The translations under genes were made by a program, and so were the position numbers. Shown here piece by piece: positions 38,236 through 51,497 of a DNA stretch of 64,000 nt (positions are counted from its first letter, which is position 1; each line of letters starts with the position of its first letter). Below the pieces are notes generated by a model. That model was not told the DNA's origin, did not search any database, and saw nothing but the letters and a program-made list of their open reading frames with translations. Source of the DNA: Tetraselmis striata (Eukaryota > Chlorophyta > Chlorodendrophyceae > Chlorodendrales > Chlorodendraceae); NCBI GenBank assembly GCA_006384855.1, contig VCJN01002769.1, positions 434,001 through 498,000 of the forward strand, given 5' to 3'.

Positions 38236-39498
38236 GATTTCGTACCGCGGTACGTTTGATCATGTCATGATATAAAGCACGCACGTGCATTGTAACACTT
38301 GCCAAATCAAGATAAAAATGGCGTAACAATCCCCACTGGTCAAAGCGTGACATAGCGTACACGCCGTGGAAGGTTAAACGTCGCCGGGCCAAATATATTC
38401 ATGTATTTGAAAAAGCAACCGAGAGACGACGGGAGCTGTCGGGGGACAGCGCTCGGAGCGTTGCGCATGAACAAGGCACGGGGACGAGAGGAGCAGACAG
38501 GGGGTCGCAGGGCGACGCACCGCTACACATATAGCGGGGCGCATGACAGACTAAGCATAAGTGCGACGTCAAACCCAGCTCCAGATCCACCTTGCTACCA
38601 CGGCACGCTACGCCACACCCCTCCCCCCTTTCTGTGTTTTTTCAGCTACCAACTACCATGGCCGGAAAGGAGAACAACATGCCGGAGGGGGAGCTCGTAC
38701 CTGCCGGAGACGGGGCCCCGCTCAGATCAAAGAGAGGGGCAGCAGCAGGTATGCCGACCTGACCACGGACTCCGACGGGTGCGGGCACCTGTACAGATAA
38801 GAAAGGCAGTACCGCGCCGTAGGGGTCCACCAGGGGCAGGCCCACTTCGGCCACCAAGATCCCCGCAGGCGTAGACCAGGCGTACAGGTAGTGGGCCATA
38901 GCCCCGCAGAACCCAGCCCTCCGTCACGGCTCGTGCTCCCAACGCTCCGCACTGACGAATAGCACTGCGTACCGACCGACAGACTGGCGTAGTTAGCACT
39001 CGGAAATGGCCAATGGGGCCGTCCTGTCACAGCTCAGGCTACCCACACCCGCCAGGATCCGGCGACCAGCTCACCTCACCTAAACGGCCTGTATCACCGC
39101 GGTACCGAGGACTAACTTAGGGAGGTCATGAAGGAAACCCACACGCGACAACGATGCAGTTTTCGTAAGGGGGGCGATGTCCGCCGAGCGTTGCCGCAGA
39201 GATGGCACTATGCGTAACGCCCGCCGCCCGCGCCGCTATTTTCTATAAAGTGTCCAGCGAGTAACGACGGCACACCACACCGGGCCCGACGGGCCACGAC
39301 ATGACAGGCCGTCTACATGCAACGATTACAGCCAATAGCTTAACCCAGTTCGGACGAAAACTCGCACGCGACGCGCGTGGTTTCTATATATGTGTATATG
39401 TGCAGTTATAGTATATACATGTATAGATATGTGTATGTATATGTATATACTGTGTATATGCATAATATATATATAGCGTAAGCAAAAGGGGTCGTCCA
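38236..39498. other. Stretch between the decayed and the better preserved element
   Basis: No gene recognised. An AT-rich block with TATATGTGTATATG-type repeats (about 39386-39475) precedes the hairpin at 39499. Open frames around 38400-38900 show no motif. Confidence 0.4.
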
Positions 39499-39549
39499 GA
39501 CCTACAGTGGAAGACGGGTCAAGGCCCGCCAGTTTCCCCACTGTAGGTC
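39499..39549. repeat. Hairpin at the left side of the Kangaroo-like element
   Basis: GACCTACAGTGG near 39499-39510 is the reverse complement of CCACTGTAGGTC near 39538-39549, a perfect 12-bp stem. A smaller CGGG/CCCG stem lies in the loop. It sits 30 nt before the tandem leader repeats and may mark the element end or a structured leader. Confidence 0.55.
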
Positions 39550-39579
39550 AAAAGGCTATACAATAAGAAGAAAAACAAA

Positions 39580-39955
39580 GGTTCCCTCGAAAAAACAGTT
39601 CCACAAGCTCGGGGTCTCACAGGCCGTGAGGCACCGTGGGACATACATAATACGCTCCCAGGTTCAAACGGGTCAAAGGATCAAAACAAGGATCAAAAAA
39701 GTTCCCTCGAAAAAAAAAAAAACAGTTCCCACAAGCTCGGGGTCTCACAGGCCGTGAGGCACCGTGGGACATACATAATACGCTCCCAGGTTCAAACGGA
39801 TCAAAGGATCAAAACAAGGATCAAAAGGTTCTCTCGAAAAAACAGTTTCCACAAGCTCGGGGTCTCACAAGTCGTGAGGCACCGTGGGACATACATAATA
39901 CGCTCCCAGGTTCAAACGGATCAAAGGATCAAAACAAGGATCAAAAGGTCACCAC
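39580..39955. repeat. Three tandem ~125-bp leader repeats
   Basis: Units start near 39580, 39701 and 39828. Each has GTTCYCTCGAAAAAA, CACAAGCTCGGGGTCTCACA, GTGAGGCACCGTGGGACATA and GGATCAAAACAAGGATCAAA. They differ by a longer A run in unit 2 and a few substitutions. They lie upstream of the Gag-like ORF, where a retroelement leader or promoter would be. Confidence 0.85.
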
Positions 39956-40728
39956 TCAGACGGATACACAGAACAGACTCAAGCAGTCCAATGGCTCCCG
40001 GACTCGCGGACTGCAGTGCCACTGGGTTCGCTGGATCATACGATCCGGAGGACCACAGAAATGGCAGTCAGCAAGACTCAAAAAGTCGAGCAGGCTATAG
40101 GGCTCACACGGTTCACCGTTTCAAGCACAGACAGCACGCAGCTACGTACCCATACGCACCGGCAGTTTCCACAGCGGGCTCACCGGAGAGATCGCGGCAT
40201 CCATCGAGCAAAACGCCGCAGCATAACAATACTAATCCGGATCCACTATATTATTCTCCCTCGTCTATCTGTCCACCTGCACATATATGTTTCTACATAC
40301 ATATACATATATACATATACATACGCAGCACCATCCAAATGTCAATAAACATAAACATGAACATAACGACACCCACCCACACAAACGCGCATAGCATTTC
40401 CCCACATACATACGCACACACATAGAAATATAACACACACGCATGCACGCCTATCACGATCTCTCGAAAAAAGATTCCAGATCAGGACATCATATCCAGT
40501 TTCCATCACACCCGCGGATCGCGGCAACATGATCAGCAAGCGCCATCCTGGGGCGACGCTACCCGGCACCAGCAAGGTTATGCGGGCGGATAAAACGCAC
40601 CGTGTTAAGGTGTTTCTCACACATCAGGACTCAGGAGCCAGGGCAAAATAAAAAAAATAAAAAAAAATTGTCGAATAAAACTGGTCTCATCGCAAACATC
40701 AATCATCCACCCCCTCAATATCCAAAGA

Positions 40729-42219
40729 TTGCGGGATATTCATGCTATACAGGCAGCATCAAGCCGGGATCCGGCGGTTCACACATGTGTTCCATGTTCA
40801 CTGTCTCCAGGCCAACGGAAGGCAGGCGGCAAGCCCAAGAGAGGCAAGACCGCATTGCTCAACCAGCCGGAGGGCAGTGGCGACAAGGAAGTCACCGGAG
40901 ATACCGATGATGAGATCGAGGAGATCGAGGAGATCGAGGGCACCGGGGATCCAGCCATCGGGACCACATACGGCAGGCCCGAGCTCGAGGAAGCCGAGGT
41001 CCAGGCTCAGCAGCGCCAATACATGCCCCAACAAGCCAGGGATCAACGCGCTGCAGATCAACTCGCCAGATCGGCGGCGGACTATGACGAATCAACCGCA
41101 TGGGAAGCCATGAATCTCGCCCAGCGCGCATTCGCCCAGATGGAGCGCATGACGCCGCGCATCGCAGGGATCCAGATTGAGCTGGACTCCAACCAGTTCG
41201 CGGTCACCCAGCTCCAAGGCCAAGTGGCAGCCCTTTCCAAGCGGATCATGGACATGGCGGCAGGAGTCAACGGTCCGGACAACAATCAACGCACAGCTCA
41301 GCGCACCAGCCTCACAGCGGACCTGATCGAGATCCACGACACCAGGATGATCAGACCGATCACCATGTCACACCCACTGGCAGAGGTCCACCAGATCGTA
41401 ACGTTCATGAAATCGTTCTGCGAGGCAGAGCTCTTCAACCTGATCGTTGCTGAGATGGAAATTCTCATGGTCATCCAGAAGGGCAACACCGCCCTCAAGG
41501 ACAGCAACAAAGTGATCATGGCTCTCAAGGCGGACCACGAGATTGGGTACGAACGCAACCACATGCTCGAGACACTGACCGGCATGTTCATGGACCGGTT
41601 CAATGTCAAGGGATCAGACGTCTCACTGGATTTCAACACGATCTCCACCATCACTGCTGCGCTGGGGAATATGTGCAAGCGCGCTATCGCTCTGGTCTCC
41701 GCCATGGACACCAGCGGGGTGGCAACGAACATGCAGACCACCCAAGTGGTTGCCAAGATGACCTACCCCCCGGATCACGCGGAGGAGTACAAGGGCCTCA
41801 CATGGGCATCGGCCAAGGATCTGGCCAAGACATTCGTGGTCAGGTTCGCGTTCATTATGGGAAAGCGCCTCACGCGCAATCTCAAGATCCAGTCTCAGGC
41901 CAAGGCCGCAGCTCCCCATTACGAGGTAGGCGAAGGGTCCGGGGGGCCCAAACCCACAGTCCCCCCCAAGCCTACAGATCATCTCCGCGGGTCGCTAAAG
42001 GACAAGCGCTACGATCTGTGGCCAACCGGGAAATCGGCCACGGTGGAGAGAAAAACCGCGTGGTGCGCCAAAAACATGTGCGAAGGCGCCATGACTGGCA
42101 CATGCACCCGACCCCCCGCAAGGTGCAATTTTCTCCACCACGTCTCCCCGCTGGGGTTAGACACGGACCAAGTGCTGACCATGATCAAGAACGGACGCGC
42201 TGCCAGGTCCAAGCACTAG
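40729..42219 (+). CDS. Gag-like protein of the Kangaroo-like element
   Basis: Open frame of up to 496 residues ending at TAG. The acidic N-terminal third has an EIEEIEEIEGT run and Gln-rich sequence. The middle is helical (MNLAQRAFAQMERM, IQIELDSNQFAVTQLQGQV). The C-terminus has a cysteine/histidine cluster (WCAKNMCEGAMTGTC...CNFLHH), likely a CCCH- or knuckle-type zinc-binding site for RNA. Position upstream of the RT and the zinc-binding tail fit a nucleocapsid-like Gag. The start is not certain: no in-frame ATG exists before about 41023. A splice acceptor (CTGTCTCCAG, about 40809) could join an upstream leader exon instead. Confidence 0.6.
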   Translation: MRDIHAIQAASSRDPAVHTCVPCSLSPGQRKAGGKPKRGKTALLNQPEGSGDKEVTGDTDDEIEEIEEIEGTGDPAIGTTYGRPELEEAEVQAQQRQYMPQQARDQRAADQLARSAADYDESTAWEAMNLAQRAFAQMERMTPRIAGIQIELDSNQFAVTQLQGQVAALSKRIMDMAAGVNGPDNNQRTAQRTSLTADLIEIHDTRMIRPITMSHPLAEVHQIVTFMKSFCEAELFNLIVAEMEILMVIQKGNTALKDSNKVIMALKADHEIGYERNHMLETLTGMFMDRFNVKGSDVSLDFNTISTITAALGNMCKRAIALVSAMDTSGVATNMQTTQVVAKMTYPPDHAEEYKGLTWASAKDLAKTFVVRFAFIMGKRLTRNLKIQSQAKAAAPHYEVGEGSGGPKPTVPPKPTDHLRGSLKDKRYDLWPTGKSATVERKTAWCAKNMCEGAMTGTCTRPPARCNFLHHVSPLGLDTDQVLTMIKNGRAARSKH

Positions 42220-42699
42220 ATCCCCAGATCGCAGGCACAGATCTGACAAATAGGTTCCACTCCCCATCTGCGCCACGTGATCACCAATGCAGGCAGACTA
42301 GCACCGGCTCACAATCTGACATTGCGCCCTGAGCAAGTCAAAGCCGGATCAACCACAGGCCTCACAAACCCACCAGTTTCTTGTTCGCCGGACCCCAGAC
42401 CAGACGAACGGATCCCCACTGTAATCAGGCTCGTAAGCTTCTCTTGCCAACATCAATTACAAACTGCAAACGCGCCCAGTTTCCGCGCTCGCACAGAATA
42501 TTCAAAAATAGATACAAATTTCACCCGCAAGCGCAGGATCTGCGCACAGCCTCCAGCGTCAATAAATGCACCACAATCAATAAGGAACTGGGGCGCCACC
42601 TGGCTCACCTAGATCCCCAAGACCACACAGCGAGGATCGCTCATTAGTAAGATCCCATGTTCGCTGTGCCGAAACTTCACAGGTTCAAACACCGGCAGC

Positions 42700-44094
42700 A
42701 TGGACCCTGTCATGCAGCGCCTTCTCAGCCAACACGGATGCCTGTTGGAGACAGCCACCACGTGGGGCCGCGTCCGGCAGCCCAAGAAGTTCATGCATGA
42801 GGCAGGAGGATTTTCTGTGCTCGACATATGCGCCGGCCAGATCGTGCCAATTTATGGCCTCCACACAGCGGGAGGGCAGTTCAAAAAATACAGATACAAC
42901 GACATCAATGACAGAGCCAGGGACCTCACGGCCTGGCGACTCCAGCAACTCATGCAAGACGCACCGTCGCAATGGGACGCCAACTCGCTCAGCGATTGGG
43001 AGCAAGCTATCCCTATGGATCTCAAGGAGTTCGCCGCCGAAGCGGAATATGTATTCAGCCAGATCCCAGACTCATTGCCAAACCTGGTGATCGCAACTAT
43101 ACCGTGCGTGGACACATCGCTGGCTGGCGACGGTTTGGGTCTCAGAGGGCACCGATCGGGTTTGGTGTTCTAACTTATGGTGGTCATGCGGGCCCTCCGC
43201 AGCGCCTACACGGCGGCAGGATGGAAGCCCACAACACCGGGCGACGCGCCGTTCGCGTGGATACTGGAAACATCACCCATCTTCGAGACGGATACTCGAC
43301 CGCTCATCTTGGAGGCCAAGCAAGTGTTCACCCACCTGCTCGGGAACCCGGTGCAACCGGACGCGGCCATGGCGGGATCAAGCGCTTACCGCAAAACCAT
43401 GCTATTCTCCAACATGGGGAGGGAGGACCAATTCAACTCCATCCAGGACTGGACCCCGGTTCCAATGATCCGATCCCTTCAGGAATGTCTGCCGCCCAAC
43501 TATAAATTGCAGACAGTGGAATCATGGCACATCACGCCACGCTACCCGCACAACATCTTGGGTAGTCCCGTGACAATGTCACCCAAGTATATGCGCTCCA
43601 AGGACTCATACGCCTTCAAACGGCACCGACACGGACGGGGCAGGCACGGCGTGGGAGTAGTTCTCACCCGCGATCAACCAAGCGGCGCATGGATACCAGC
43701 AGAGCCGCCAGTCCAACAGATCGAGCTCTCAATGGGTTTCCCCAGAAATTACAATCTGCAGGCCAGATGCCGCAGCAGCCCAGCTCAACCAGGAGAGCTA
43801 ACCGCCGATAACACCGACCTCCTCACAACACGGGAGCGGTGCGAATTCTACGGAGACGGATGGGACGCAAACCTGTCCATCAGACTATGGAAAACCATCC
43901 TCAATTGGGACTCCCCGCCGTCGGACGGGCCGGACCCAGGCGAACCTACCAGAGACCACAAGCGCCGCGCGCCTGGTCCAGATCATGATGCAGACGCCCC
44001 GGCTATCAAGCGCCCAACCCCCGCAGATTTGGCGCCGCCACGCGGGGCCCCGGGGGGCACACCCAGCCAGGTCGCAACCCCCAGCAGGGGCTAA
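42700..44094 (+). pseudogene. C5-cytosine DNA methyltransferase of the Kangaroo-like element, one in-frame stop
   Basis: One frame runs from ATG 42700 to TAA 44092-44094, broken only by TAA at 43171-43173. Before the break are motif I (FSVLDICAG, residues 38-46, SAM binding) and motif IV with the catalytic Pro-Cys (TIPCVDTSLAGDGLG, Cys136), then RGHRSGLVF as in bacterial Dcm. After the break come motif VI-like WILETS, a basic HRHGRGRH (motif VIII-like) and IELSMGFPRNYN, matching the conserved RLMGFP-type motif near the end. The order and spacing are those of Dcm/DNMT enzymes, which methylate cytosine at C5. DIRS elements are known to carry an adenine methyltransferase-like domain; a cytosine enzyme here is different. 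The stop, right after motif IV, would truncate it unless read through; a restart at ATG 43177 is possible but would lack the SAM site. Confidence 0.75.
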
Positions 44095-44181
44095 GGGACC
44101 AGAACAACCTGCCCCATCCAGTCGTCAGCCGCAAAGCTCACTGCGAGGGGCTCGCCAGGCCAAGCAGTTCCAGCCCCGGCG

Positions 44182-46798
44182 GTGTGGCCGGAACACAACG
44201 ATTACCCGGTTAACGAGCAGCCCCACCACTCAGAACCAACAGATCAGAAGGCACAGATCGCAGTTGCCAACCACACGTTCACCCAGGCACGGGACAAGGA
44301 CGGGGAAGAAGCGGACGACGTATTTGACCGCCTGACACCAGCCCCCGCAGGCCTACGGCCGATTACACCAGCACCGCCAGATCACCCCCCACCGGCGCTG
44401 CTCCACTCACTGCCGAAACCGCTCCGGCAATCCGACCCAGAAATGATCCGGGCACTAGCCCAACTGGATAAGACTCACACTATGCTGGAGCAACGCCGTC
44501 AAGGCGTAGCCCCGCCCGAACCTACGGATGAGGAGTGGCTGCGGGAACTCCGCAGCGAGATCAGACCAACGGAAAAGTTCGTCACCGGCAACCTGCATCG
44601 GTTCCTGCCCGTCTGGGAAAAATACATCGCCACCATGCCAGCGGCAGATCAGCAGCGACCGGTGGTCAAGCGCGTACTGCGCACCCTCCGGAGAGGACTC
44701 AAGTTCGATTTCGTCAATCCTCGCTGCGACACCCAGCGCTCGCACCCGCGCTACAAGCGCAACATTAAACGAGTAGCCCGATCATTGGCGAGGGCCATGG
44801 GACCGGACCAGGTGGAGCCGTTGCTCAACCGGACCACACCGGGACGAGTTCACCTGCCAAATCTACCATCATACCACGAGAACCAGGATTTTGTACTCGA
44901 GCAGCGCGACGCTATTGCTGATGGACGGACGGCTCGTCGAGTGGTGGTGGCCAGACAACCAGCCCCCACAGTGCATCCTGCCCCTCGGGGTGGATGTGAA
45001 GGCGGTGTCAGGGAAATGCCGATTGATCCATGATGCAGGATACATCAACCTGTTCAGCCGGTATATCAAGTTCTCGTTGGAGTCCATGGAGGACGCCACG
45101 ACCGGAACCACCACGGGCTTTTGGGGAGTGGCCAGCGACATCAAGGGCGGCTACACCCATCTCTGTTTTGCCCACAGCTCGGTCACCTACACCGGCGTGG
45201 AAATTGAAGGAAAAGTGTACGCGCATGTGGCCGTAAATTTCGGCAATGCGCCTGCACCACGGGTCTACACAGAAGTTACTGCAGTTATGTTCCACTGCAT
45301 GCGCATGGCGGGGGTCTACATGACCCTCTATATCGACGACCGCCTGATGAGAGCTTTCCTTAGGCACCAGCTCATGCAAGATGCGCTGATGGCGTTCATC
45401 CTGGAAGCAGCGCTCGGATGGGCAGTTTCCACCGAGAAGCTGCAGGTACCCCCCCGCCAAACAGTGACGTGGACGGGGCACGAAATCCACTGGCACGCGC
45501 AGGAGCCGTTCCTAAAAATCCCAGAGGAAAAAATGGCCCACGTGGTCAACTTGACGCGGGAGCTCAGCGCGCGCCCGCAGGCAACGCCGCGTGAGCTGGC
45601 ACAGGTAGCGGGAAAATTATACAGCATGGAAAAAGCTGTCCCGCTCCTGCCACTACTATGCCGCGACCTGTGGGAGGAGACAGCGGGGACCAAGGCATGG
45701 GACATGCCATCACCACTCCAACCCCGGCTATCCGCCTACCTGCGTTTCCTCGCCGATCACTGCGCGAAGCACAACGGCAAGCGCATCTGGCAGCGCCAGC
45801 AGGGACTCATCGTATGCGGGGACGCATCAGCCATCGGATTCGGCGCAAGGGTGGTTAACCCATACGGAAACTTCGAGGGTGACCCAGACACATGGGCAGT
45901 CCCGGCACACGAGCAGCTCCAACGATGGGGCACACCGGTATTCCAAACCGCGTTCACAGAGGCGCTACGAAAAGCCGCCGAGGATCAGTCTTATTCCAGC
46001 ACCGAGCGGGAGCTCGATTGCTTACTGGCATTTCTCCGCATCGCACTGATCTGGATGCCGCAGTTACTACGCCACTCCGCCATGCTCTACCTAACAGACT
46101 CCCAGAACACAGAGACAGACATCAGGTGCATGCGAGGCGGACCACGGGTGTTTCACACCGTGTGCGAGATATGGCAGGTCTGCCTTTTGCACGACATCGA
46201 TCTGCAGATCAAGTGGCTGCCACGCGAACACGCCCTCATGCAATGCGCGGACGATGAGTCCAAAGAGGAGGACCCATCGCAATGGGCGCTCAGCCCATGG
46301 CACACCGAGCTCATCCAGCAACGCTGGGCGGTGGCGAACATCGCATTCGAACAGAAACAGATCCTGGACGTCTTTGGCGACGAGGTCACTGCCAAATCTG
46401 AGCATTTCTTCTCTCGAGCTCTCTCTCCTGGCACGTCAGGCATTGACGGGTTCACGCAGGCATGGTTCACATCAGCGGTCCCCAAGCCGCTCTGCTGGGT
46501 CAACGGCCCGTTTACCCACATGACACGCGTCATCCAAAAACTAATTGATGAACGCGCCGACGCAGTGCTCATTTTCCCAGATTGGGTGGCAGGCTGGCGG
46601 GCAATGCTCAGCGAGCTCCCAGTCCGCGACGCATTTACGTTGCCAAAGCAAGACGCCGGAGGCACGAACCAATTGCTGTTCAAGCCGGGCTCACGGGTCC
46701 CGCGCAAGGCGCGCGAGGCGGGATTAAAGTCCCAGCCAAACTATGAGGTTGTCGCGATGTTGATCATTTGGGACAACAGCGATTGGATTACAACATAG
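44182..46798 (+). pseudogene. Reverse transcriptase-RNase H of the Kangaroo-like element, one frameshift
   Basis: An N-terminal extension reads in frame from 44182 (possibly from just after 44094) to about 44925. The RT then continues in the next frame to TAG 46796-46798. The shift falls at GGACGGAC (about 44924-44931), and one 4-bp unit accounts for it. RT signs: RLIHDAGYIN, WGVASDIKGGYTHL with the first catalytic Asp, and LYIDDRLM as the YxDD box. RNase H signs: VCGDASAIGFGARV, SSTERELDCLL, LYLTDSQNTETD and a distal Asp in MQCADDESK. The C-terminal part (CWVNGPFTHMTRVIQKL, LIFPDWVAGW) is a segment found after RNase H in DIRS-type proteins. Apart from the frameshift all catalytic residues are kept. 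A programmed shift cannot be excluded, though no canonical slippery site stands out. Confidence 0.8.
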
Positions 46799-46816
46799 CG
46801 CGAGGCACGCTAAGCA

Positions 46817-48130
46817 TCACGGGGTTAGATCTAAGGACTCAAAGGCGTCGAAAAACTCATCCTCAGCATCAGAGTTAGCCTCATCATCAGACCCTAGTTC
46901 CATTTGCACTAGCCGATCCCGATGACGGGCGGGGTGCACATAGCCCAATGTTGTTCTCACATGGCGATGGCGCCCATGGGAAGCCTGCGTAACACTCTCA
47001 CCCTCCACAACAACGTCATGCTGCAAACGGCCACGTTTCACGCCGTGCAAGGTGTGGCCTTTATACAAACCAGCGGCACGCAAGTGCCCCTTGAATCGGA
47101 AGTTCATAGCGGCAATGCTCATGCCATGGGCCCGAAATCCAGCCGGACGCCCAGCGGCCAGGGGACGAAACAGAAAGTCCGCCAAAGGCCACCCGGCATC
47201 AGCCATGGCGGTCGCATACCGGCCTAGCCGACGGAGCAGGCAAAGCGACTCACTGCCCGGGGGCAGCAGCTCCAGCTCCATGACGCCGCTGTGAGCGGTA
47301 AGGTTCCCCTTGGTCCCGTAACGGGGCTCTGCCAAAACACGGTCATCCGCGGTCAAACGACCGGCAACGATCGCGTCCCACGCAGGGCGCAGATCCACAC
47401 CGCGCACCAGGAAATCTGTCAGTTCCATGGTGCCGGCCTCAAAACCACGGGCGGCGGTCTCCCACAAATACAACACGATGCAAACATCGCGATGCACCGC
47501 GGCAGTGACCACCAAGTCCGGGGTAGTCCGCAAGATCAGGCCATCCATGAACTGGACCAGCTCCGCCAGGGTCGCGTAGTCCAACGGCACGGCGCCACTC
47601 TCCCCGTACCCCAGCTCAACCAGGGCACGCTTATAACCAGCCATGTATTTGACGACGCTCACGGCATACACGGGGTTGGCATGCTTAGGCACGCCCAGTT
47701 CACGTAGGGCCGTCGCCAGTTGCGACACAGCATGCCGCAGATATCCTGGGGAAGCAGGTCGGCTCCCGTCACGCATCAGCTTGCGCCCATGATGATGGCG
47801 ATGCCAATATTCCGCGAAGAATATTAGCACATCCCACTCGGTGCAGGTCTCCGGGGTAGGAGTCAACGGCGGAGGCACAGTGCTCGCCCAGGCCTCGAAT
47901 TCTCGCAGAATCCCGCGACGGCGCTGCGTAGTCACAGGCCTCTCGCAACGGGAGGCCACCCGCGCAGCGGAAGTCAGAGCAGCAGCCGAGCGAAGGGCAT
48001 ACTGCTGCACGGAAACCGGGGCAGCCGCCACCGCAGAGAGCGGAGAACTGCCGCCAGCGCCGCGTCCCCAGTCGCTCACGCCTTGAGGCGCCAGAAAGGC
48101 GCTGCGCTGCATCACTCGCAGGGACTGCAC
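46817..48130 (-). CDS. Tyrosine recombinase of the Kangaroo-like element
   Basis: Open frame of 437 residues on the minus strand, ending 18 nt from the RT stop. The N-terminal half is helical (core-binding). The catalytic half shows box I Arg in LWETAARGFEAGTMEL, the H..KRG box in HTLHGVKRGRLQHD, and GRHRHVRTTLGYVHP with the probable nucleophile Tyr. An acidic tail (DDEANSDAEDEFFDAFESL) follows. The enzyme would integrate a circular DNA intermediate by site-specific recombination, as proposed for DIRS-type elements that lack a DDE integrase. It is not closely similar to the two YR relics at 32.4-33.7 and 35.5-36.5 kb. The frame is intact, so this copy may still make an active recombinase. Confidence 0.8.
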   Translation of the reverse strand: MQSLRVMQRSAFLAPQGVSDWGRGAGGSSPLSAVAAAPVSVQQYALRSAAALTSAARVASRCERPVTTQRRRGILREFEAWASTVPPPLTPTPETCTEWDVLIFFAEYWHRHHHGRKLMRDGSRPASPGYLRHAVSQLATALRELGVPKHANPVYAVSVVKYMAGYKRALVELGYGESGAVPLDYATLAELVQFMDGLILRTTPDLVVTAAVHRDVCIVLYLWETAARGFEAGTMELTDFLVRGVDLRPAWDAIVAGRLTADDRVLAEPRYGTKGNLTAHSGVMELELLPPGSESLCLLRRLGRYATAMADAGWPLADFLFRPLAAGRPAGFRAHGMSIAAMNFRFKGHLRAAGLYKGHTLHGVKRGRLQHDVVVEGESVTQASHGRHRHVRTTLGYVHPARHRDRLVQMELGSDDEANSDAEDEFFDAFESLDLTP

Positions 48131-49370
48131 CCAGTTTTGACTGCCCTACGGGGCGGAGATCAGAAGGCGGCAACGCCAGTTAGTCAGCTCCGTTCGCCCC
48201 CGTGTTATATATTCCGGCAAGTCCAGCCACAAGGCAACTGGGAATATAGGGAAGATTACTGCAAACAACATCAACGCCGAAATACACACCAAAAGGGATA
48301 AGAAACCCAAATTGGGGCATAAATTGGGAAGGTCAATGTGTATTTCAGCAAGACCACCAGCAGCAGCAAAGAGGCCAGATAACTGCATCATGCCCTAGGG
48401 GCTGTAGCAGTGGCCTAGGCGGACAAGAGGCAGAAGTTGAGGGCAGAGTATGACGACCCTAGGAAGGGTACCACACCACCCCAACTAAGTCGGGAGACAA
48501 AAGCACATTCAAGTTCGGCATTTAAAAAGGAATAAATAAATGCAGACACCGCAGGATGCGATCGAGAACCCCGGGGGGATCACCACCATATGCGGCTGGG
48601 GAATGAAAAGATCAGGACTTATCAGACCGCGCAGGGGCGCCGGAGAAAAGTAGGATCCAAAGTCGGGTTACGGGAATTCACATTGGTTAAATGAGGACAA
48701 ATCATGGCAAACGAGGCACCTGCCATGATTATCAGGAAAAGAGTTGTACTAATTTTCGAAGTTGCGGAGTTCTCCGGGTTCGGCAAAAAGGGGGTTGCAC
48801 GGGGTCATTCAGACGTTGGCTCCATCAGGAGAAAATTGTCCGAAAAATGCCTGCATATACCCTGTTACCGGACTACGGGGGGCACCCAATCTGAAATTTA
48901 GAAAAGTTAACCAGGGCTACGGTGGATCCCGGGTTCTAGTACAAAGATTTCGGGCATTACATGAGCCGGAAAAGGAAGGCCAGGGGCATGCCAAAAAGGG
49001 GCAAGCCCAGATTACAAGAGGTACCACCGCATGGCGGGAACGGAAACCGCAAAGTACAATGACCACGACATGCTATGGGACTTCATATCGCATATGATTT
49101 GTGGTAAGAATAACAGTCGTTGCGCGCGCAACGCCGCGCGACGGGAAACTACCTGAACTCATAAACCGAACCGCGTGGCGCTCAGGCGGGCATCGGCAGC
49201 AAGCGCCCCGGCGGAGCAGATACGCCTCCCGCTTCTCAGCGCGCGCAGTCCTACCGCTCACTGCCGCGCCTCTAACGTTGGCGCCACTTCCTGATATATT
49301 CAGACAGCTGGACACCACCGACAAATCGGAGGAGCGATTTCAGCTCCAGGCGGGGGCGTGAAAGAGAAGG
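48131..49370. other. Between the Kangaroo-like YR and protease B
   Basis: About 1.2 kb. The first few hundred bases probably belong to the element; the last part must hold the protease B promoter and 5' UTR. No coding region or clear core-promoter motif recognised. Confidence 0.4.
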
Positions 49371-51497
49371 ATGGGACGTGCTGGAGGATGGGCGCTTCGG
49401 CGCGCCTCTGTGGCGGCGGCGGTTGCTGCGGCATGCCTCAGCATGTGGGCCGCTGACTTGGCCGCCGCAGCTCGGCCCGCCGCGCCCGCCGACGCTGGCG
49501 TCACCGCGCCCAAATCCTGGGCGCGCAGCCTGCTCAGTGACTCAAGCGACACTTGCGAGTGCCCAGTGTGCGACGAGGTCCGCGTAGTGGGGGGGCGCCC
49601 GGTGGACCCGCCCGGCCGCTACCCCTTCGTCGTCAACCTCGTGCGCTACGGCGTGCAGGAGTTTTGCGGCGGCAGCCTCATCGCGCCCAATGTCGTCCTC
49701 ACCGCCGCGCACTGCGAGCAATCGCGCACGACCGTGTGGATTGGACGCCACAATCTTCGGCAGGGCGCTAGGGGGGTGGACTGGGAGAGCCACGATATCG
49801 TGGACAAGGCGTACCCCGACCCGCGCTGGGACCCCGTCACCAACGACAACGACCTCATGCTGCTCAGGCGAGTACACCTTTAGCCCCCCCCCCCCCCCCC
49901 CGCGCCCGCCCGCCCCGCGCAACCCCCGCTTCTCCCTCGCGCCCCACCCACTCACCCACGAAGCCGGTCAGAACTGCGGCTGAAAGTGCCAGGGCCGTAC
50001 TGACGCAGTGGCGGCCCGCCGCAGTCGCAGTCGACTGGCTCGTACCGCTCTTGAAACATTCGTCCCTTACCACAATTTCACTATGGTGTCGCCATAGGCC
50101 TTGTGCGTTGCGTGCGCTACGGTCGAGACCGAATGCACTTTCGCGAGAAGGTCGCCTTTGAAAATTTATTTGCACGGAAAGATAGTAAGAGGTCTTGAGT
50201 TTCTCGTCCGTGGGCGTGCTCATGTGCTTGCGACGCGCTGCTCTGGTCGCTAGCACTGACGAAACCCGTTGACAACAATCCGAAACCACAGGCTCGCGAC
50301 CGACTCAGAGTACGAGCCAGTTGCGCTGGATCCGGGAAGCCTTGTCGAGGAGGTCGAGAAGAACAACCTACGCCCGATCGTTATGGGCTGGGGCGCCACT
50401 GCGTATCAGGGGCGCCGCGCCAGCGTGCTGCAGGAGGCCACTCTCGCGGGTTTCACACCGGAAGCGTGCAACGGCACGGACATGTACGGCGGCCTGATCA
50501 CGAAGAACATGGTGTGCGCGGCGGTACCCGGGAAAGACTCGTGCCAGGGTGACAGTGGCGGCCCCCTCATCGTGGACATAACGGAGCAAAATGCGGCAGA
50601 GGAAGCTGGCGGCGACTCGCAGTACGGCGAGGATGTACTGGTGGGTGCCCTGGTTGAGATTGTCGTGACGACTGACCGTTGCCGTAGCATAGAGACTTTA
50701 CATGCATACACCCAAAATGGACAGCGAGGAGCCTTAGGAACGGCCGGCGTGGCGGAAGGCTTGAATGGCTAATATGCGTTCATGTGCACGGCATGTGGCA
50801 CCAGGTGGGTGTGGTGTCGTGGGGTATCCGCTGCGCTGCGCTGGAGTCGATTGACGACGAGTTGTCCGGATACCCGGGTGTGTACGTGCGGCTGGCGAAC
50901 TACAAGCAGTGGTTGATCGACCAGCTGGCAGCTTGGGGCACCGAACCCCGTTTCGCGACAAAGAAAAGCGGAGACAAGGGGGCGAGGAAGGTTGTTATGC
51001 CCTCTCTAGATGCCAACCTGCCTACCTCGAGGCTGCCATGCTCAGATCTGCCGGTACGCACCTTCAGCCTCGGCGTATGTGTTGGTGCCCCTCACATGTC
51101 TACCCCCCGCACTCTTCAGCAAACCCTGATGTCTCCTCCCTTTTTGGTATTTGCGTGGCAGACCTTCGATCCAGAGCCGGAGAGCCCCACCGTCTGCTTC
51201 ACCAGCGTGGATGTGGGCGGCGTGTGCATGGATGGCGGCGCGTACACCTGGGACATGGCCGCCACCAAGTGCAAGGACATGGGGGCGAGGCTCTGCACCC
51301 TCTCTGAGCTGATCGGCAACGAGGCAAAGTCCGTGGGGCCCAACGGATGCGGCCTCAACCGCGAGATGCTTTGGGCGGCTGATGGCTGCGGCGAGGGCAT
51401 GTTCGTGTCTGCCTTTGGCGGCAACGGAGGAGCTCAGGCCTGCTCCCCGGGCAGCACGGAGATGTCAGGCGTGCGCTGCTGCGCCGACGAGTTTTAA
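49371..51497 (+). CDS. Secreted trypsin-like serine protease with C-terminal cysteine-rich module (protease B)
   Basis: Four exons, 49371-49867, 50292-50640, 50805-51053 and 51162-51497 (TAA), encode 476 residues. The N-terminus is a hydrophobic Ala-rich signal-like segment. A CxCxxC propeptide and the activation site VR/VVGG follow. The triad is His114, Asp161 and Ser254; Asp248 in the S1 pocket predicts trypsin-like cleavage after Lys or Arg. After a linker shorter than in protease A comes the same Cys-rich module: GGVCMDGGA, GARLCTLSEL, GCGLNREMLWAADGC, GVRCCADEF. Intron positions and phases equal those of protease A, including the GC donor of intron 1 (CTCAG/GCGAGT), after which an 18-nt C run begins at 49884. 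It is a paralogue of 22893-25535, pointing the opposite way. Secretion is likely; substrate unknown. Confidence 0.9.

Follow-up and report, generated by a model that had tools for sequence, protein, structure and literature searches.

The analysed window, a stretch of 64,000 nucleotides from Tetraselmis striata within contig C2232 (assembly of 224 Mb in 2,903 contigs), harbors one copy of a retrotransposon in which a repeat A, tandem repeats, a Gag-like ORF, Pol, an antisense tyrosine recombinase (YR) ORF, and a repeat B follow one another:

38269..49096, + strand: whole element copy, 10.8 kb, with ends set by the homology breakpoints of other copies
38269..38643, + strand: repeat A, 375 bp, the 5′ terminus, starting with GATATAAAG (38269–38277), half of a YR-like site
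39577..39949, + strand: three tandem repeats of ~120 bp in the 5′ untranslated part
40729..42219, + strand: Gag-like ORF, 496 aa in the window copy, with a C-terminal Cys/His-rich stretch
42700..44091, + strand: C5-cytosine methyltransferase (MT) domain, motifs I to X, assigned by profile–profile comparison
44182..45775, + strand: reverse transcriptase (RT) region of Pol, YIDD at 45329, assigned by motifs and without a Pfam match
45776..46198, + strand: RNase H region, CGDASA at 45815 and LTDSQNT at 46091, assigned by motifs, with approximate boundaries
46199..46807, + strand: Dam-like N6-adenine MT domain at the Pol C-terminus, WVNGPF at 46496
46817..48130, − strand: YR ORF, 437 aa, antisense, assigned by motifs
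48326..49096, + strand: repeat B, 771 bp, the 3′ terminus, ending in CTTCATATC-GCATATG
49081..49095, + strand: half-site CTTCATATC with the 6-bp spacer GCATAT

The initial annotation had described a DIRS-order element with an antisense YR and with C5-methyltransferase motifs situated between Gag and RT. This arrangement is borne out, and the motifs quoted there all share one frame: FSVLDICAG at 42811, IPCVDTSLAG at 43099, WILETS at 43258, and MGFPRNY at 43732. The segment 42700–44091 (+) corresponds to a full-length MT domain, which in the window copy is broken by an in-frame TAA at 43171–43173 and met by a second in-frame stop at 44092–44094; a 1-nt insertion at 44915 additionally lies in the RT region. 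As to intact copies, the family is dispersed over 44 DNA places in the genome, and in two of these, L029 (~211 kb away on the same contig) and L030 (contig C488), the MT frame continues uninterrupted into RT. Both encode a Pol of 1,399 aa, ordered in a single frame as C5-MT, RT, RNase H, and Dam-like N6-adenine MT. Outside Pol, a stop divides the YR of L029 into 308 and 107 aa, while L030 carries one frameshift in Gag and 133 of its YR codons were read.

RT, RNase H, and YR are not recognized in Pfam and NCBIfam scans, and YR finds no match among the phage records; its motif residues R, H/K, H, and Y are mostly kept across copies. A zinc-finger scan of Gag returns only a weak CCCH-type match (Pfam E 0.58). 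Fragments of a gene for a trypsin-like serine protease (PF00089, E 9e-16 and 1e-15) begin about 275 bp past the 3′ end of the element, at 49371–50772. Chlorophyll-binding proteins, found at 63 places in the assembly, mark the host as a photosynthetic eukaryote.

The MT domain itself falls below the thresholds of standard profile searches. No match of PF00145 to the MT pieces of the window is reported at E up to 10 in the Pfam scan, and across the family the profile remains sub-threshold, with E 0.3 for the MT of L029 and 0.044 at best among 19 members. The NCBIfam dcm model is similarly weak (E 0.26 for L029, 0.0073 for a piece of L018), and no domain in the scans of the element reaches the curated Pfam or NCBIfam thresholds. 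Thus, the PF00145 search proposed with the initial annotation gives no significant match, the outcome that the annotation had named as refuting, and it is profile–profile comparison alone that rescues the C5-MTase call. A profile of the MT (A2, built from 42 natural pieces, Neff about 1.5) was aligned by hhalign to an alignment of 11 C5-MTases comprising human DNMT3A, M.HhaI, and nine phage enzymes, which yields a probability of 97.2, E 2.9e-11, and a score of 85 over 281 columns, covering residues 35–400 and motifs I to X. Scores are lower in the controls, at 15.6 for the reversed profile and no more than 8.9 for any of 60 column-shuffled ones. Against single sequences, the same profile gives only weak hhalign results (probability 17.5 for DNMT3A, 2.6 for M.HhaI). 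In pairwise local alignment, the MT of L029 scores 66 against human DNMT3A (z 7.5; 0 of 500 shuffles as high) and 49 against M.HhaI (z 3.5). Gag, taken as a control in the comparison with the C5-MTases, ranges from z −1.6 to 2.1.

Further matches come from phages. Three PHROGs families, each named DNA methyltransferase, are matched by the MT (best E 5e-4, residues 32–169), and tblastn with an E cut-off of 10 matches 45 of 50,697 phage records; among the best 15 of these (E 0.2 to 6), 11 are annotated as DNA methylases, three are unannotated records, and one carries other features. Because the profile–profile match exceeds its reversed and shuffled controls and is joined by the PHROG and phage matches, a C5-MTase domain in the element is established by homology. 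Searches of the PDB sequences return no useful match for the MT, its alignment, RT-RNase H, or YR. Scans of viral contigs, queried with the MT as well as DNMT3A, find no relative, and AlphaFold models of the MT are of low confidence (pLDDT 33.6 from the single sequence, 30.3 from alignment A2). The empty or sub-threshold Pfam, NCBIfam, and PDB sequence scans, together with the weak single-sequence hhalign results, could be taken to mean that the motifs arose by chance in an unrelated retroelement domain. The distance between the observed score and that of every shuffled profile, the three PHROG families, the DNA methylase annotations among the listed phage matches, and the behavior of the Gag control make this extremely improbable, and we reject it.

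With respect to its affiliation among C5-MTases, the MT leans toward DNMT3, while its placement is insecure. A DNMT3-like profile matches with E 1.2e-7 over 276 columns and a HhaI-like profile with 3e-6 over 135 columns, so that the “Dcm-type” label given initially is not favored, and a Dcm/HhaI affiliation is possible but less likely: of the two profiles, the DNMT3-like one gives the better fit and spans the entire domain. Yet the highest single pairwise score, 76, belongs to the phage phi3Ts MTase of the HhaI-like set, compared with 66 for DNMT3A, and three DNMT3-like phage enzymes reach a z of only 2.0–2.3. With the DNMT3 family and the DNMT3-like phage C5-MTases, the MT shares alignment over the full length, the motif IV signature PCxD-S, the GFP motif, and a C-terminal GxxW; it differs from them by an identity of ~22% and by longer motif spacings. 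A DNMT3A query of the genome, run without a positive control, gives no match at E up to 0.001.

DIRS elements have long been known to carry an adenine-MT-like domain of unknown role. In the element described here, this domain has not been replaced by the C5-MT; a Dam-like domain still occupies the Pol C-terminus, and we take it to be the customary adenine-MT-like domain of the DIRS order. A match to phrog_111 (DNA methyltransferase, E 1.5e-4) covers the final 203 residues of Pol, and eight weak matches to phage sequences comprise three N6-adenine MTases or Dam proteins, three hypothetical proteins, and two ribonucleotide reductases. The PF05869 (Dam) profile does not report the Dam-like domain of the element copy. 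Among the matches listed, however, this domain matches 30 genome places at 31–33% identity, and 26 of these 30 overlap independent PF05869 matches. PF05869 itself matches in 122 genome places, many of them inside 696-aa frames.

Purifying selection acts on the two MT domains alike. Relative to L029, the MT of 12 divergent copies (dS about 0.65–0.80) shows a dN/dS of 0.17–0.31. By region, the median dN/dS is 0.16 for the MT core (12 copies), 0.15 for RNase H (9), and 0.16 for the Dam-like domain (8), compared with 0.59 for the linker (10), which serves as internal control, all values being measured against L029 and hence mutually non-independent. Moreover, the catalytic positions of the C5-MT are retained in the readable copies among 18 copies tabulated out of the 28 loci L009–L036: the motif IV Cys in 17/17, the motif I Gly in 15/15, the motif VI Glu in 16/18, and an Arg in 17/18.

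The neighboring residues depart from the canonical pattern. Usual C5-MTases have PCQ or PCN in motif IV and ENV in motif VI, and the usual N6-adenine MTase motif is NPPF. The MT family described here has PCV and ETS, and the Dam-like domain reads NGPF, in which neither G nor P varies among the 24 copies tabulated. Judged by these motifs, MTase activity could be lost or altered. We considered that the C5-MT might be a retained but weak or dead module in the manner of DNMT3L, which would bind DNA or nucleoprotein and aid Pol processing or targeting. To the departures in both domains one may add that purifying selection alone is no proof of catalysis and that CpG decay is absent. On the other hand, a purely structural role would not need the catalytic Cys and the motif VI Glu, which are kept even though 12 copies stand at a dS of about 0.65–0.80 from L029. 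We therefore consider a weak or dead module possible but doubtful.

The two MT domains also tend to travel together. When 111 protein matches are collapsed by hand into 51 MT loci, at least 36 of these are followed within 7 kb by a Dam-like match of the same orientation, while 15 of the 51 have none among the matches listed. Conversely, 38 of the 74 Dam-like loci listed, a set that leaves out the 30 places of 31–33% identity, lack an upstream MT match, many of these loci being fragments; thus, other copies without the C5-MT ORF, which the initial annotation had held to speak against its proposal, do occur in part. The order of MT and Dam-like domain recurs at C2085 despite an MT identity of only 28%.

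A subgroup devoid of the RT core (window 44193–45775), seen in L009, L010, L012, L034, and L036, retains RNase H, YR, and the regions of both MT domains, but has broken MT frames. In 11 copies of the RT-less group that were scored, the linker shows a dN/dS above 1 (median 2.1) at low dS. At four further places (two in C735 and one each in C1651 and C1487), an MT 39–49% identical to that of L029 abuts the Dam-like domain with a gap of 4–95 bp, too short to accommodate RT and RNase H.

Separate from this family, PF00145 exceeds its cut-off in 123 other genome places, none of which belongs to the MT family described here; C5-MTase genes are thus common in this genome. Thirty-nine of the 123 lie in open frames of at least 1,000 aa, and many match profile positions 44–116, which suggests other DNMT-bearing transposon families. 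At six places, a near-full-length match sits inside a 325-aa frame.

A search within single copies finds no inverted terminal or split direct repeats, only tandem repeats and short matches at chance level. The repeat plan emerges from the flanks of L029 and L030, where B is followed by a second unit, A2-X-B2, with A of 375 bp, X of 140 bp, and B of 771 bp. This unit is located in L048 (with L029) and L049 (with L030), and the 0.8 kb (C2232) and 1.8 kb (C488) in between were read only in short pieces (L037 and L038). The window copy has no A2-X-B2, and C488 contains one further A plus a partial B. A1 at the 5′ end together with A2-X-B2 after B corresponds to the split-direct-repeat plan of PAT elements. 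An A-X-B unit of ~1.28 kb also occurs alone on the reverse strand of L035 (~335–1625), where it comprises both element ends, and is a candidate non-autonomous derivative.

Three of the 13 3′ ends found (L011, L037, and L038) run directly into a 5′ end. In L037 and L038, the B/A junction reads CTTCATATC-GCATAT-GATATAAAG, and in L011 CTTCATATC and GCATAT are followed by GATATGAAG. The junction of L037 and L038 consists of 9-bp arms, complementary at 8 of 9 positions, around a 6-bp spacer, and thus has the palindromic form of a YR crossover site.

If resident copies were strongly methylated at CpG, by the host or by the element itself, a signature would be expected in their sequence. CpG observed/expected is 0.92 in the window copy of the element and 0.97 outside. 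Among five recent copies, there is neither CpG depletion nor a CpG-specific excess of transitions, with a transition rate of 0.022 at CpG versus 0.0195 elsewhere, which argues against strong CpG methylation of resident copies; it does not argue against transient labelling. C/T differences between recent copies instead peak at C before T (0.028), and those at TCT (0.036) and GCT (0.034) are about twice those of most other contexts. These data bear on the proposal of an action in trans, through 5mC placed in host chromatin or through disturbed host silencing. The C5-MTase domain is present and conserved, and PF00145 finds the many other places mentioned above, both of which would fit such a role; the unaltered CpG content and transition pattern of the five recent copies run counter to it, and we regard action in trans as quite unlikely.

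The closest published counterpart is SymbioDIRS-Dnmt3 of Symbiodinium, in which a DNMT and RT share one Pol ORF, YR has an ORF of its own, and the repeats follow the order A-B-A-B (de Mendoza et al, 2018; PMC5890265). The element of T. striata shares with it the DIRS order, the DNMT in Pol with RT, the separate YR ORF, repeats of the plan A-coding-B-A-B, and the many copies. Unlike the element here, SymbioDIRS-Dnmt3 is described without mention of an adenine-MT domain in the passages of PMC5890265 devoted to it, and the MT described here lies below Pfam thresholds. Further, SymbioDIRS-Dnmt3 belongs to dinoflagellates according to the same passages, while the present host shows no match to the DVNP or PCP markers, in a search run without a positive control. 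A 2025 paper likewise reports, in the part concerned, that some DNMT3 are located in DIRS-family retrotransposons (PMC12344493). DIRS elements with a C5-MT are therefore already known, and the suggestion that such an element may be an under-described lineage has this precedent against it. KnitGypsy-Dnmt3 (Klebsormidium nitens) and SymbioLINE-Dnmt, in the same account, are also retrotransposons with a captured C5-MTase, but are built on Gypsy (LTR) or LINE machinery, with no YR reported there (PMC5890265).

Within the DIRS order, Kangaroo of Volvox carteri and the PAT group, as portrayed in the relevant part of PMC4157794, share with the present element split direct repeats (A1-B1-A2-B2) and an MT in Pol, and Kangaroo also the antisense YR. 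In contrast to these elements, an extra C5-MT lies upstream of RT here. A Gag without zinc finger is characteristic of Kangaroo; in the present element, Gag has no significant Pfam zinc-finger match but does have the Cys/His-rich stretch. The internal repeats B1-A2 are located 3′ of YR, as in a Daphnia PAT variant, whereas in Kangaroo they lie between MT and YR (PMC4157794). Consequently, “Kangaroo-like” holds for the antisense YR and the split direct repeats, but not for the position of the internal repeats. In the openly accessible papers searched, no polyprotein combining a C5-MT and a Dam-like domain came up, and within that scope the pair appears to be new.

Taken together, we favor, with a probability of about 0.68, a degenerate copy of a PAT-group YR element whose MTases would act in cis on new element DNA and be retained as element functions. 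The element RNA would be reverse transcribed into circular DNA, whose B/A junction could serve as the crossover site for YR. One or both MTases may methylate this newly made DNA in cis, at C5 and/or N6, and the marks would protect or label element DNA before or at integration; the two enzymes would accordingly be kept for the element's own functions and not as cargo. A more specific version of cis labelling, in which Pol places both C5 and N6 marks on its own nascent DNA as an identity tag resembling restriction–modification, allowing its cDNA or circular intermediate to escape host nucleases or silencing or to be recognized by its own YR, is unlikely.

Retrotransposons have captured C5-DNMTs on several occasions, and, as the present family shows, transposon-borne DNMTs can escape Pfam-based censuses. 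That a single polyprotein keeps both MTs under similar constraint suggests a role of DNA methylation in the cycle of the element itself.
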